Shown: positions 28,638-32,359 of the stretch, piece by piece
Layout: each line of letters starts with the position of its first letter
Numbering within the stretch: position 1 is the first letter of the stretch
Source of the DNA: Thioclava sediminum
Lineage (GTDB): Bacteria > Pseudomonadota > Alphaproteobacteria > Rhodobacterales > Rhodobacteraceae
Assembly (NCBI RefSeq): GCF_002020355.1
Contig: NZ_MPZV01000004.1
Location: 62,001 to 126,000 of the forward strand
Direction: 5' to 3'
Length of the DNA stretch: 64,000 nucleotides
Translations under genes and position numbers: made by a program
The notes under the pieces: model-generated
Told to the model about the DNA's origin: nothing
Seen by the model: the letters and a program-made list of their open reading frames with translations, nothing else
Database searches by the model: none

Positions 28638-29267
28638 CTACCAGCGCAGCACGCGCTTCCCGAGCAGAGCCCCCACGAGCATCACGACGACGATCCCGAT
28701 ACCGTACCAAGTGACGTAGAACAGCGGGCTGTCCTCGGTGCAGTGCAGGGCGTAGATCGCGGTGCCCATGCCCCCGGCGGCAAGCCCCGCCAGCGCCCCG
28801 GCCTGAGCCGGACGCGTCACAGCCCCTTTGCGCAGGCTGATAAGGAGCGCGCCCAGCGCCGGGAGGGACAGCATCGGCACGGAGATCAGGCAGGGCAGGA
28901 TCGTCTCGCCCTCGAAATCCGCCATGCGCTGACCGTCAGGCGTGGTCAGGAAGGCATAGGCCAAAAGCGCTGCCCCGATCGCGGGGAAAATCCAGAGCCA
29001 CCCGGTCGAAACCTTCGCCGTGGGCCGCCCGAGGCGCACCGCCATCGGCGTCACAAGCACGGCCAAGACCAGTGGCAGGTAGAATTTCGGGGCGATTTCC
29101 GGCGTCAAAAGTGTCTGTTGCAGCGGAAATCGTAGGCCATAGACCGAAATCACGAACAGTGCCGACAGCAGAAGCGCCGGCACAAGCCAGCGGCCAAGCA
29201 CCTGCTTCGGGCGCGGATCGGGCAACGTGTCTTGTTGCAATACGGATATCAGGTCTTCGGTTTTCAT
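28638..29267 (-). CDS. nrsF: NrsF-type membrane anti-sigma factor (DUF1109)
   Basis: 209 residues with a short cytoplasmic N-terminus (~25 residues, where the sigma factor would bind) and six membrane segments from residue ~28 to ~203. Two cysteines stand out, Cys126 (ILPCLIS) and Cys176 (ALHCTED), 50 residues apart. I recall two conserved cysteines with the same spacing in Caulobacter NrsF that are needed for metal sensing. NrsF holds SigF at the membrane until heavy-metal stress releases it. The ATG overlaps the sigma-factor stop (ATGA), so the pair is co-translated. Confidence 0.88.
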   Translation of the reverse strand: MKTEDLISVLQQDTLPDPRPKQVLGRWLVPALLLSALFVISVYGLRFPLQQTLLTPEIAPKFYLPLVLAVLVTPMAVRLGRPTAKVSTGWLWIFPAIGAALLAYAFLTTPDGQRMADFEGETILPCLISVPMLSLPALGALLISLRKGAVTRPAQAGALAGLAAGGMGTAIYALHCTEDSPLFYVTWYGIGIVVVMLVGALLGKRVLRW

Positions 29268-29815
29268 ATCTCGATCAGCCTCTCGCGAAGCGCGGCCAGT
29301 TTTTTCAACGAACGATGCAGCATCACGCGCACCGCTCCCTCACTCATATCTAACGCATCGCCGGTTTCCGCGATGCTTTTCCCTTCGAGCCCGATAGCGC
29401 GCACCAGCTGCGCGGCGCGAGGCTCGAGATGGGTCAAAAACGTCTCTATATCGGCCTTTTCCGTGGGATCGGCCTCTGGAGCGGCAGGCAGCATCTCGGC
29501 GAAATCCTCCACCGGAAGATGGATACGTCGCCCGCGCTTGCGAAAGGCGTCGACCACCTTGTGCCGGGCGATCGCGTAGCACCATGGCGCCGCCGGCTCA
29601 TCCTCGCGCCACGTGTGACGCTTCAGATGGATGGCGAGCAACACCTCCTGCACGACATCCTCGCAATCGGCCTCGGACAGCCCGGTACCGCGTGCCCGCA
29701 CGACAGACCGCAACACCGGGGTCACGGCCTGCAGGAACAGACCGTAGGCGCGCTTGTCGCCCGCATTCGCAGCCCGCAGGAGCTGCGACCAATCTGCCCG
29801 CCGATCATGCATCAT
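29264..29815 (-). CDS. sigF: ECF sigma factor, SigF type
   Basis: 183 residues from ATG 29815. Region 2 is at DCEDVVQEVLLAIHLKRHTW through ARHKVVDAFRKRGRR, and region 4 at TGDALDMSEGAVRVMLHRSL. The frame is open to an ATG at 29839, but that codon lies upstream of the -10 element of the gene's own promoter, so translation must begin at 29821, 29815 or 29812. GAAGGG before 29815 makes it the best choice. Pairing with a DUF1109 anti-sigma and with the DUF2282/DUF692 operon copies the Caulobacter SigF locus, which responds to heavy metals. Confidence 0.9.
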   Translation of the reverse strand: MMHDRRADWSQLLRAANAGDKRAYGLFLQAVTPVLRSVVRARGTGLSEADCEDVVQEVLLAIHLKRHTWREDEPAAPWCYAIARHKVVDAFRKRGRRIHLPVEDFAEMLPAAPEADPTEKADIETFLTHLEPRAAQLVRAIGLEGKSIAETGDALDMSEGAVRVMLHRSLKKLAALRERLIEI

Positions 29816-29824
29816 CGCCATCCC

Positions 29825-29850
29825 TTCGTTCGCGATCATGCCTTCGTTAC
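29825..29850 (-). promoter_or_regulatory. Autoregulated ECF promoter of sigF-nrsF
   Basis: On the minus strand GTAACG (29850-29845) is followed by exactly 16 bases and CGAA (29828-29825). The same two boxes with the same spacing drive the divergent peptide operon. It resembles the GTAAC-N16-CGAA signature I recall for Caulobacter SigF. Transcription should start near 29818, leaving almost no leader. Confidence 0.75.
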
Positions 29851-29875
29851 AGCCCGATAGAAAAACTTTTTTCGT

Positions 29876-29909
29876 TCACGCTGGCGTGATCTGCGTAACG
29901 CCAGCGTGA
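29876..29909. promoter_or_regulatory. Perfect 12-bp inverted repeat between sigF and the peptide operon
   Basis: TCACGCTGGCGT (29876-29887) and ACGCCAGCGTGA (29898-29909) are exact reverse complements separated by ten bases, giving half-sites two helical turns apart. The right arm overlaps the -35 element of the peptide operon promoter (29895-29900). No T-run follows on either strand, so it is an operator candidate and not a terminator. Confidence 0.6.
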
Positions 29910-29920
29910 CCTCTCGCGAA
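29895..29920 (+). promoter_or_regulatory. ECF promoter of the bufferin-type operon
   Basis: GTAACG at 29895-29900, a 16-base spacer, and CGAA at 29917-29920. It is identical in both boxes and spacing to the sigF promoter on the other strand. The predicted start is about 29927, giving a ~39-base leader to the precursor ATG. Confidence 0.78.
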
Positions 29921-29929
29921 AGGTGATCA

Positions 29930-29944
29930 GGACCGCAACGGTCC
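29930..29944 (+). other. Small hairpin at the 5' end of the precursor mRNA
   Basis: GGACCG, loop CAA, CGGTCC: a perfect six-bp stem beginning within about three bases of the predicted transcription start. Terminal stems of this sort often protect mRNA from 5'-dependent decay. The Shine-Dalgarno GGGAGA lies downstream and stays free. Confidence 0.45.
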
Positions 29945-29965
29945 CAACCAATCAGGGAGACTACC

Positions 29966-30238
29966 ATGAAGACCGAAACCACCCTTGGCTTTGCAACTGC
30001 TCTGACCTGCGCGATGGGGCTGGCCAGCGCCGCCCATGCCGAAGATCAGGCGATGGAGAAATGCTACGGCGTCGCGATGGCCGGGCAGAACGATTGCGCC
30101 GCCGGGCCCGGCACCACCTGCGCCGGCACCGCGACGATGGACTATCAGGGCAACGCCTGGAAACTCGTCCCGGCGGGCACCTGCACCGAGATCGAGACGC
30201 CGCACGGCATGGGCTCGCTCGAACCCAAGGAGATGTGA
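29966..30238 (+). CDS. bufA1: Bufferin-type RiPP precursor (DUF2282), secreted
   Basis: A 90-residue precursor. The signal peptide runs to Ala25 (cleavage after SAAHA), leaving a ~65-residue mature part with four cysteines: Cys33 ([10 protein letters not shown]), Cys44 (QNDCAAG), Cys52 (TTCAGT) and Cys73 (GTCTEIE). The K-C-Y-G-V-A-x-A-G-x-N-D-C pattern is characteristic of DUF2282 proteins. In the bufferin system MNIO enzymes convert cysteines of such precursors to thiooxazoles and the exported product binds copper. Which cysteines are modified here cannot be read from sequence. The gene has its own ECF promoter and ends before a strong terminator, so it is probably expressed above its maturase. 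Confidence 0.9.
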
Positions 30239-30245
30239 TCCCAAG

Positions 30246-30279
30246 CGGGGCGTGCGGACGGCGCGCGCCCCGTTTTCTT
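30246..30279 (+). terminator. Intrinsic terminator between precursor and maturase genes
   Basis: CGGGGCGTGCG (30246-30256) pairs with CGCGCGCCCCG (30262-30272), an 11-bp stem with one T-G pair and a five-base loop, followed by TTTTCTT. It lies entirely in the 57-bp gap between the DUF2282 and DUF692 genes, so it should attenuate read-through into the downstream genes. Confidence 0.85.
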
Positions 30280-30295
30280 ACCGATGGAGGCTGCC

Positions 30296-31138
30296 ATGAC
30301 ACTGCCACGCAAAGCGGGCCTCGGCTTCAAGCCAGAGCATTTTCCCGCCATAACAGAGACTAAACCGGATCTCGGTTTCTTCGAAATCCACGCGGAAAAC
30401 TATATGGGCGCAGGCGGGATGCCGCATGCGATGCTAGAACGGTTGCGCGCGGATTATGCACTTTCGGTGCATGGCGTGGGCCTCTCGATCGGCGGCCCGG
30501 ATCCGCTGGATCGCGACCACCTCGCGCGGCTCAAGCTCCTGTGCGACCGATACGACCCCGAGAGCTTCTCGGAACACCTCGCCTGGGCAAGCCATGGCGG
30601 TGTCTGGATGCACGATCTGCTGCCCCTGCCCTACACGGCGGAAACACTGTCGCTGATCTGCGATCACGTCGATGAGGTGCAGGAGCATCTCGGCCGCCGG
30701 ATGCTGTTGGAGAATCCGGCGACCTATGTGCTCTTCGACGATTCCGACATTCCCGAGACTGAGTTTCTGACCGAGATCAGCCAGCGGACCGGCTGCGGAT
30801 TGCTGCTCGATGTGAACAATGTCTTCGTGTCCTGCGTGAACCACCGGCAGGATCCGCGCGCCTATCTGGAGGCGTTCCCGCTGAACCGTGTCGGCGAGAT
30901 TCATCTGGCTGGCCATGAAGAGGAAGAGTTGCCCTCCGGGCCCCTCCTGATCGACAGCCACGGGCGCGAAGTCGCGGAGCCAGTTTGGGCGCTTTATGCT
31001 GAAATAGTCTCCAAAACCGGGCCGCTTCCGAGCCTTATCGAGTGGGACAACGACGTGCCGGACTTCGCCACTTTGATGGCCGAGGCCAAGCGCGCGTCGA
31101 TGATCCTGTCGGGTGACCACCATGCGCTCACATCGTGA
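30296..31138 (+). CDS. bufB1: MNIO-family maturase (DUF692), BufB-type
   Basis: 280 residues from ATG 30296, with GGAGG six bases upstream; an ATG at 30284 overlaps that site and is less likely. A TIM-barrel multinuclear non-heme iron enzyme: candidate iron ligands are in [68 protein letters not shown] and LIEWDNDVP. This is the pattern of MbnB and BufB enzymes, which oxidise peptide cysteines with oxygen. It should act on the upstream DUF2282 precursor in the cytoplasm before export. Its 3' end overlaps the DUF2063 gene by 17 bp. Confidence 0.92.
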
Positions 31139-31895
31139 TTTCGCCCGCGGGTTCCGCGAGAGTCTCGCCGGTGGGCCCGCGCCGCAAAACGCCACCGCCC
31201 AAGATCCGGCCGAAATCGAGCGCCGCTTCGACGTTTACCGCAACAACGTGGCCCACGGGCTGACACAGGCCCTCGCGCGGCATTTCCCGGCGATCGAACG
31301 GCTTCTTGGCGCGGATTGCTTCCGGGGGCTCGCCCGGGCCTATATCGCCGAGCACCCGCCGCGCACGCCCGTCCTGACCGAATGGGGCGGCGCATTTCCG
31401 GCCTATCTCGCGGATGAACCTTCGCTGCAATCGCTGAGCTATCTGCCCGACGTCGCCCGCATCGAATGGGCGCGCAGCCGGGCTTATCACGCAGCCGATT
31501 CAGAGCCTATTGCGCCGGAACGCCTGCAAGAGACAGCCACACGCGCGGGCACTGACCTGTGCCTAGATCTGCATCCGTCGGTGCAGGTGCTTCAGCTCCT
31601 GACGCCCGCCGGTTCGATCTGGGCCTCGCAACAACCGGGCGGCCCCGCTCCACCGCGGGCGAAAGAGTGGAGACCGGAGACGCTGCTGATTGCGCGGCGC
31701 GGGATTTCTCATGTGATCACGTCCGTCGTTCGCAGCTCGACCGGCCGCTTCGTCTCGGCCCTCCGTGCAGGCGATACCGTCGCCCGCGCACGAGACCGGG
31801 CGGGAGCGGATTTTGACCTCAATGCAGCGCTTCTGCTGCTGGTGGAAAATGCGCTGATCGTCGGCGCGGGCATCGAAACAGGAGACGAGTCATGA
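31122..31895 (+). CDS. bufC1: DUF2063 partner protein of the MNIO maturase, BufC-type
   Basis: 257 residues from ATG 31122 ([11 protein letters not shown]). The N-terminal DUF2063 (putative DNA-binding) domain has the usual [16 protein letters not shown] and [10 protein letters not shown] blocks; the C-terminal half resembles the substrate-binding wing of MbnC-like partners. In characterised MNIO systems this protein binds the precursor and presents it to the enzyme. A copy of the dispersed palindrome lies at 31499-31511. The stop overlaps the DoxX gene (ATGA). Confidence 0.88.
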
Positions 31896-32359
31896 CCGAT
31901 ACGATCGAGATGAAAACGCCAAAACAGGGTCTGTTCCGGCTGTATCATCGGTTTTCCGATGTAGCCCAGCGCTTCCCGGAGGAGATTGTTCTGATCGGCG
32001 CGCGGCTCTTTCCGGCGATGGTGTTCTGGATGTCCGGGCGGACCAAGGTGGAGGGGTTCATGATCAAGGATTCCACCTTCACCCTCTTTCAATACGAATA
32101 CGACCTGCCCGTCATTCCGCATGAATGGGCGGCGGTGCTCGCGACCTTCGCGGAGCATTTCTTCCCATTGCTGCTGATCTTCGGCCTTTGCAGCCGCCTC
32201 GCGGCGCTCGCGCTTCTGGCGATGACGCTGGTGATCCAGATCTTTGTCTATCCCGGCGCGTGGGTGACGCATGGGATTTGGGCAATCGCGCTTCTGACGG
32301 TTCTAATGAAGGGCCCCGGGCGGCTTTCTCTCGATAAGCTCATCGGATTGGAACGCTGA
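31892..32359 (+). CDS. bufD: DoxX family membrane protein, BufD-type
   Basis: 155 residues with four membrane segments (around residues 32-48, 75-95, 100-120 and 125-145) and the DoxX-type region [23 protein letters not shown]. DoxX proteins close most DUF2282/DUF692/DUF2063 operons; the role is unproven but may be redox coupling or export at the inner membrane. A perfect copy of the dispersed palindrome lies at 31923-31935, near the start. It is the last gene of the operon: the flavin reductase gene follows after 50 bp with its own ribosome site. Confidence 0.88.

Follow-up and report, generated by a model that had tools for sequence, protein, structure and literature searches.

Does the interval 28638-32359 of a 64,000-nucleotide stretch of the Thioclava sediminum genome (NCBI RefSeq assembly GCF_002020355.1, contig NZ_MPZV01000004.1, positions 62,001 to 126,000 of the forward strand; the whole stretch is hereinafter referred to as the window) encode a complete bufferin system, and which signal would switch it on? 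The interval holds six genes in two divergent units, nrsF-sigF on the minus strand and bufA-bufB-bufC-doxX on the plus strand (Table 1). Together they most probably make up a complete operon of the Buf1 bufferin type under SigF/NrsF control (probability about 0.9, a figure for the identity and control of the operon that does not extend to copper as the signal). The locus is of an ordinary, already described kind and is a well-preserved example rather than a novelty.

All six genes matched Pfam families above the curated cut-off. An earlier interpretation made from the letters alone (hereinafter the sequence-only reading) had proposed a bufferin-type operon for a ribosomally synthesized and post-translationally modified peptide, composed of adjacent genes for an extracytoplasmic function (ECF) sigma factor, an anti-sigma factor, a DUF2282 peptide, an MNIO/DUF692 enzyme, a DUF2063 partner, and DoxX. 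All of these genes were found in place, and the proposal agrees with the family matches, the conserved residues, the fold of the BufC model, the divergent SigF boxes, and the conserved synteny. BufB passed the NCBIfam equivalog MNIO_BufB (390.6 bits; cut-off, 310), and its nearest named record, 97% identical, was from Thioclava sp. JE_KL1. SigF also matched NCBIfam PRK12512 (223.7 bits; cut-off, 198). The genome contained one match each to DUF2282, MNIO, and NrsF. Chance co-location or decay of the operon, for which no favorable point was found, is extremely improbable and already contradicted: all six frames were open, bufB overlapped bufC, the start of doxX overlapped the stop of bufC, and the synteny extended to 11 congeners, in one of which a contig end truncates the locus.

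The precursor BufA contains cysteines at positions 15, 33, 44, 52, and 73. A putative signal peptide was recognized by eye at about residues 1-25, ending in AHA, and a crude hydropathy scan placed a hydrophobic stretch at residues 9-23. Because C15 falls inside this putative signal peptide, the mature peptide would retain C33, C44, C52, and C73, which fits the secreted DUF2282 peptide with four mature cysteines proposed earlier. These four cysteines were present in 123/123 complete aligned rows, the window included; as BufA or BufB similarity was the basis for gathering the rows, three duplicate loci among them, they are not fully independent evidence. Buf1 peptides carry their modifications on the two central cysteines, and the outer pair is linked by a disulfide (Antoine et al., 2025; PMC12452194). 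By position, C44 and C52 of this BufA would be modified and C33 and C73 would be joined.

Relatives of the maturase BufB in the PDB included 3BWW (E 3.7e-42), TglH, and MbnB. Counted on the alignment, N175, D220, and H222 of BufB correspond to N175, D241, and H243 of 3BWW. HvfB, which is 72.4% identical to 3BWW, requires each of N175, D242, and H244 for activity (preprint PMC13419390); the offset of one number between 3BWW and HvfB for the aspartate and the histidine is our own reading. Non-conservation of the DUF692 ligands had been named beforehand as an outcome that would refute the sequence-only reading, and it was not observed. BufB N175, D220, and H222 were kept in 124/124 aligned rows and the adjacent N174 in 122 of the 124, three duplicate loci being among the rows; residues of the type essential in HvfB were thus kept in 122 to 124 of 124.

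No PDB relative of BufC was found by sequence at E 0.001. The AlphaFold2 model of BufC (mean predicted local distance difference test score, 95.4) matched chain A of 8hi7, the TglHI complex (E 4.3e-6; template modeling (TM) score, 0.62; root mean square deviation, 6.0). By its length this chain is not TglH and is presumably the partner TglI. The model also matched 3DEE (E 8.2e-4; TM score, 0.53 by query and 0.67 by target), a DUF2063 partner protein of an MNIO (PMC13097082). On the basis of this model, BufC is assigned the PME type 1 fold. Gadgil et al. reported a 5-thiooxazole installed in all characterized MNIO-PME1 cases, an oxazolin assigned earlier having been revised to 5-thiooxazole. 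That report, together with the BufB equivalog match, argues against installation of another modification such as an oxazolone-thioamide. The same alternative extends to a peptide serving another metal such as gold or mercury, which is consistent with the response of a related Cupriavidus cluster to gold and silver in addition to copper (PMC8224329) and with the existence of MerC-Buf1 fusions (PMC12452194). We regard this alternative as a whole as quite improbable.

Control by SigF was examined through its promoter sequence, which in Caulobacter is GTAACC-N16-CGAA (PMC3511200). The gap between the sigF open reading frame (ORF) and bufA spans 126 bases, and this gap together with the opening bases of the sigF frame contained two boxes, one per strand, each differing from the Caulobacter consensus by one base, the sixth, which is G instead of C. 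The pattern GTAACG-N16-CGAA occurred at 7 places in the genome (reversed control, 12), and about 0.0002 occurrences would be expected in 126 bases. Both boxes were present in 12/12 congeneric genomes with this locus type (the window and 11 congeners), which supports the proposed SigF/NrsF control of the operon. Box spacers varied among more distant congeners, and two further congeners with a more distant sigF (G006 and G007) carried GTAACA boxes, the sigF one ending in CGTA.

The association was followed in a further 108 buf loci, comprising the 29 other loci with the highest scores in the family sample and the 80 best named records, with one locus lacking bufA dropped; three of the 108 were records of congeners already counted. 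A strict box lay upstream of bufA in 29 of the 50 loci with sigF within 2.5 kb and in 4 of the 58 without, and the reversed pattern was found in 0/108. Among the four boxed loci without sigF within 2.5 kb, one (L087) does have sigF-nrsF in its cluster, at a distance of about 3.6 kb, and the other three had no sigF in the DNA examined around them. The sigF gene was divergent from bufA in 48/109 loci. One congener (G005, contig 23; L035) carried a second, sigF-less buf locus, in which bufA and bufB were encoded on opposite strands and the search for a box was negative; its BufB was 59% identical, compared with 81% for that of the SigF-linked L031.

A palindrome of the form TCAC-N6-GTGA between the divergent promoters was kept in 8/12 aligned intergenic regions, and the form TCACG-N4-CGTGA occurred at 17 places in the genome and hence is not rare. 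It is possibly the site of a second regulator of sigF, such as has also been suspected in Caulobacter (PMC3511200). A 12-bp perfect inverted repeat (29876-29887 and 29898-29909) was dropped as a candidate, being present in only 3/12 aligned regions (the window, L027, and L028).

A third box, GTAACA-N16-CGAA, was located outside the window, 50 bases before msrP, which is followed by msrQ (L161:1425-3035; C4:456772 onward in the same genome). Both genes were named by NCBIfam, and the box lies opposite a long mechanical open frame. In 11/11 congeneric genomes with an msrP match and this type of SigF, such a box stood 50 to 57 bases ahead of the start, its spacer varying; the twelfth congeneric genome (G009) gave no match to the 70-residue msrP query. 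The box was absent in the other four msrP-bearing congeners, namely G006 and G007, with their distant SigF, G011, and G013. G013 had neither NrsF nor DUF2282, and G011 had a distant NrsF and no DUF2282 match. In G011, the distant NrsF-sigma pair (L182:3728-4899) lies beside a gene that by eye resembles a multi-helix membrane protein.

In the wider family, 30 of 133 msrP genomes were examined, with NrsF counted irrespective of buf adjacency and with one upstream stretch (L189) shortened. A strict msrP box was found in 1/9 NrsF-bearing genera, that of T. sediminum itself, and in 0/21 others (Fisher p 0.3), which contradicts the expectation that the box would run through the family. One of the other NrsF-bearing genera (G031) had a near-match with a CGTA variant. 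Since the box is kept in this group of congeners, yet its strict form was not found in the remaining family genera that were inspected, Thioclava and Caulobacter might each have brought msrPQ under SigF independently, as part of a reading considered unlikely below.

Several observations weigh against the assignment of a SigF-controlled bufferin operon with an msrPQ branch. NrsF did not reach the NCBIfam equivalog AntiSigF_NrsF (90 bits; cut-off, 300), and on this evidence it is a member of the family whose exact equivalence to Caulobacter NrsF is not certified by NCBIfam. BufC and DoxX likewise fell short of HvfC (55 bits; cut-off, 142) and HvfX (50.4 bits; cut-off, 80). The strict box was absent in 21 of the 50 sigF-linked buf loci, and the strict msrP box was found in 0/8 other NrsF-bearing genera whose msrP locus was examined. 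Genome-wide, the box pattern was rarer than its reversed control (22 vs 47, N16 or N17). Because this count is not enriched, only box position and conservation carry weight. The 22 matches comprised 13 with N16 and 9 with N17, two of them in the window locus, and the other eleven N16 matches, the msrP box among them, were read in context. Eight of these lay inside long mechanical open frames on either strand, several of which may not be genes, and another (C2:931257) lay only in a 79-codon frame. The match at C2:280802 precedes a frame resembling, by eye, the binding protein of a transporter and was found in only four close genomes; it is not claimed as a SigF target. Finally, peroxide, cadmium, and chromate all failed to induce the Sinorhizobium orthologue, which shares the divergent arrangement (PMC6180224).

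NrsF contains exactly two cysteines, C126 and C176, and both were conserved in 62/62 aligned rows, in line with the pair 50 residues apart noticed earlier. The sequence-only reading had further described NrsF as a six-helix anti-sigma factor. Its family identity held, and the helix count was not recovered: the crude scan gave five separate hydrophobic regions at the threshold used, six helices being the published description of the NrsF family.

As for the signal, copper induced the Caulobacter SigF regulon under every condition tried, and mutation of sigF makes the bacterium sensitive to copper (PMC8224329). The regulon also responds to chromium and cadmium, and two NrsF cysteines are required to keep it at its basal level (PMC3511200). 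Agents generating reactive oxygen do not induce the system (PMC3511200, PMC8224329). In Brucella, a related ECF16 system with a cysteine pair of similar spacing responds to hypochlorite and governs MsrPQ homologues (PMC8315932). Together with the msrP box in 11/11 congeneric genomes and the failure of cadmium and chromate in Sinorhizobium, where peroxide failed too, this system suggests that the same operon might respond chiefly to a thiol oxidant (hypochlorite or other reactive chlorine or sulfur species), its peptide and MsrPQ limiting sulfur damage in the periplasm. We consider this possible but doubtful, as Caulobacter SigF, with targets of the same kinds, answers copper, chromate, and cadmium and not reactive-oxygen generators, and its loss causes copper sensitivity. 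A more specific form appears unlikely, in which Thioclava SigF would join the buf operon and msrPQ, the latter maybe recruited separately, into a periplasmic sulfur-protection regulon with NrsF thiol oxidation, not copper, as the signal. A metal remains the preferred switch signal for this organism by analogy, copper being the likeliest. Thus, of the proposal that metal stress acts via SigF release from NrsF, the switch stood and the metal signal was upheld only in part, with copper, chromate, and cadmium in Caulobacter set against Sinorhizobium and Brucella.

With copper as the likeliest signal, the following scheme is proposed, which for BufA chemistry, the disulfide, copper binding, the signal, and sigma release draws on characterized relatives, whereas the genes, boxes, conserved residues, and BufC model fold come from the present analysis. 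Inner-membrane NrsF would retain SigF until its cysteine pair reacts to a thiol-active stress, excess copper being the likeliest. Once free, SigF would act at both divergent boxes to raise expression of sigF-nrsF and bufABC-doxX, and also at the distant msrPQ box. BufB with BufC would oxidize C44 and C52 of BufA to 5-thiooxazoles before export, and C33 and C73 would form a disulfide. Modified BufA would be exported by Sec and would sequester periplasmic copper, and MsrPQ would repair oxidized methionines in the periplasm.

Coordinates are collected in Table 1. By eye, bufB probably starts at 30296, with GGAGG just 5', and bufC at 31122. The start of sigF is probably 29815 and not 29839, where the longest ORF begins, because the longer ORF would run into the promoter box of sigF itself and because the shorter start is conserved: the start ATGATGCA was kept by eye in 11/12 aligned regions, L034 being unaligned there, and the longer start was not kept. 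The neighboring genes, encoding an inositol-monophosphatase family protein and a flavin-reductase family protein by Pfam, lie outside the system. An RNA-family scan of the window gave one tRNA and nothing near the operon.

Table 1. Features of the buf locus in window coordinates, with the evidence for each.
Feature	Coordinates	Strand	Evidence
nrsF, NrsF-family membrane anti-sigma factor, 209 aa	28638..29267	-	Pfam PF06532, 173.4 bits (cut-off 26.8)
sigF, ECF sigma factor	29264..29815	-	Pfam Sigma70_r2, 41.7 (cut-off 24); Sigma70_r4_2, 39.4 (cut-off 25.7)
SigF-type promoter box of sigF-nrsF, GTAACG-N16-CGAA	29825..29850	-	sequence; 12/12 congeneric genomes of this type
Palindrome TCACGC-TG-GCGTGA between both promoters, possible regulator site	29876..29889	.	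lead only
SigF-type promoter box of the buf operon, GTAACG-N16-CGAA	29895..29920	+	sequence; 12/12 congeneric genomes of this type
bufA, Buf1 precursor, 90 aa	29966..30238	+	Pfam DUF2282 PF10048, 94.1 bits (cut-off 22.4)
bufB, MNIO bufferin maturase, 280 aa	30296..31138	+	Pfam MbnB_TglH_ChrH PF05114, 359.5 bits (cut-off 25)
bufC, DUF2063 partner, PME type 1, 257 aa	31122..31895	+	Pfam PF09836, 85.6 bits (cut-off 27.2)
doxX, DoxX family membrane protein	31892..32359	+	Pfam DoxX PF07681, 59.9 bits (cut-off 23.6)

DUF2282 was found in 106/149 family genera sampled and in 14/16 genomes of the genus, and NrsF above the cut-off in 22/149 family genera (23 at E 0.001) and in 15/16 genomes of the genus. 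At least 83 of the 106 DUF2282-bearing genera had no NrsF match in the family sample, and therefore the bufferin genes there are presumably under other control. In a BufB tree of 121 rows, from which the three duplicates were left out, the sigF label required 11 changes, compared with 40.6 after shuffling (0/500 as low). This was a quick tree, with 25 of 118 inner branches starred and 49 open. With regard to a single origin of SigF-linked buf operons, the label was clustered on this tree and did not form one clade. BufB of the window fell in a starred set of 13 rows, all of them sigF-linked. Within a limited literature collection, no paper on point was found for bufferin in Thioclava or DUF2282 in Rhodobacter. 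The present data add Thioclava to the range of a characterized copper-response system and supply evidence from the sequence for its regulator, in a family in which bufferin precursors are common while NrsF occurs in few genera. They also make the regulator assignment testable, as well as the question of which signal, copper or an oxidant, opens the NrsF switch.

Among the nearest known systems, Brucella BcrS resembles the window in having an ECF16 sigma factor, an anti-sigma factor of the NrsF family (DUF1109) with two conserved cysteines (129 and 179), and MsrPQ homologues as targets; it differs in its targets, bcrXQP, and in its signal, hypochlorous acid (HOCl), and DUF2282 goes unmentioned in the excerpted text (PMC8315932). 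In Sinorhizobium meliloti, RpoE7-EcfR7 and SMb20530-SMb20527 are divergent as in the window and include DUF692 and DUF2063 genes (PMC6180224). GTAACA-N16-CGAA precedes that operon, and the rpoE7 box has a spacer of 15 bases by our count, unlike the N16 of the window. The SigF locus of Caulobacter crescentus/vibrioides has all six kinds of gene present in the window locus, combining sigF-nrsF (CC3253-CC3252) with the DUF2282-DUF692-DUF2063-DoxX genes of the bufferin 1 operon (CC3254-CC3257). The NrsF cysteines are 50 residues apart in both organisms (131/181 in Caulobacter), and MsrP(Q) belongs to the Caulobacter SigF regulon (PMC3511200, PMC8224329), as the msrP box would suggest for T. sediminum. 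The two differ in the sixth base of the box, G in the buf and sigF boxes of the window and C in Caulobacter, and in number, since Caulobacter has a second SigF-controlled DUF2282 operon (CC2907-CC2905), whereas the T. sediminum genome gave one match each to DUF2282 and MNIO. The Buf1 clusters surveyed by Antoine et al. (2025) share with the window the DUF2282, MNIO, DUF2063, and DoxX core and the four conserved cysteines, and sigma and NrsF genes have already been reported among them, without a difference of substance from the window (PMC12452194). The correspondence to described bufferin systems that had been recognized from the sequence therefore holds, with gene set and control as in the Caulobacter SigF locus and the surveyed Buf1 clusters.

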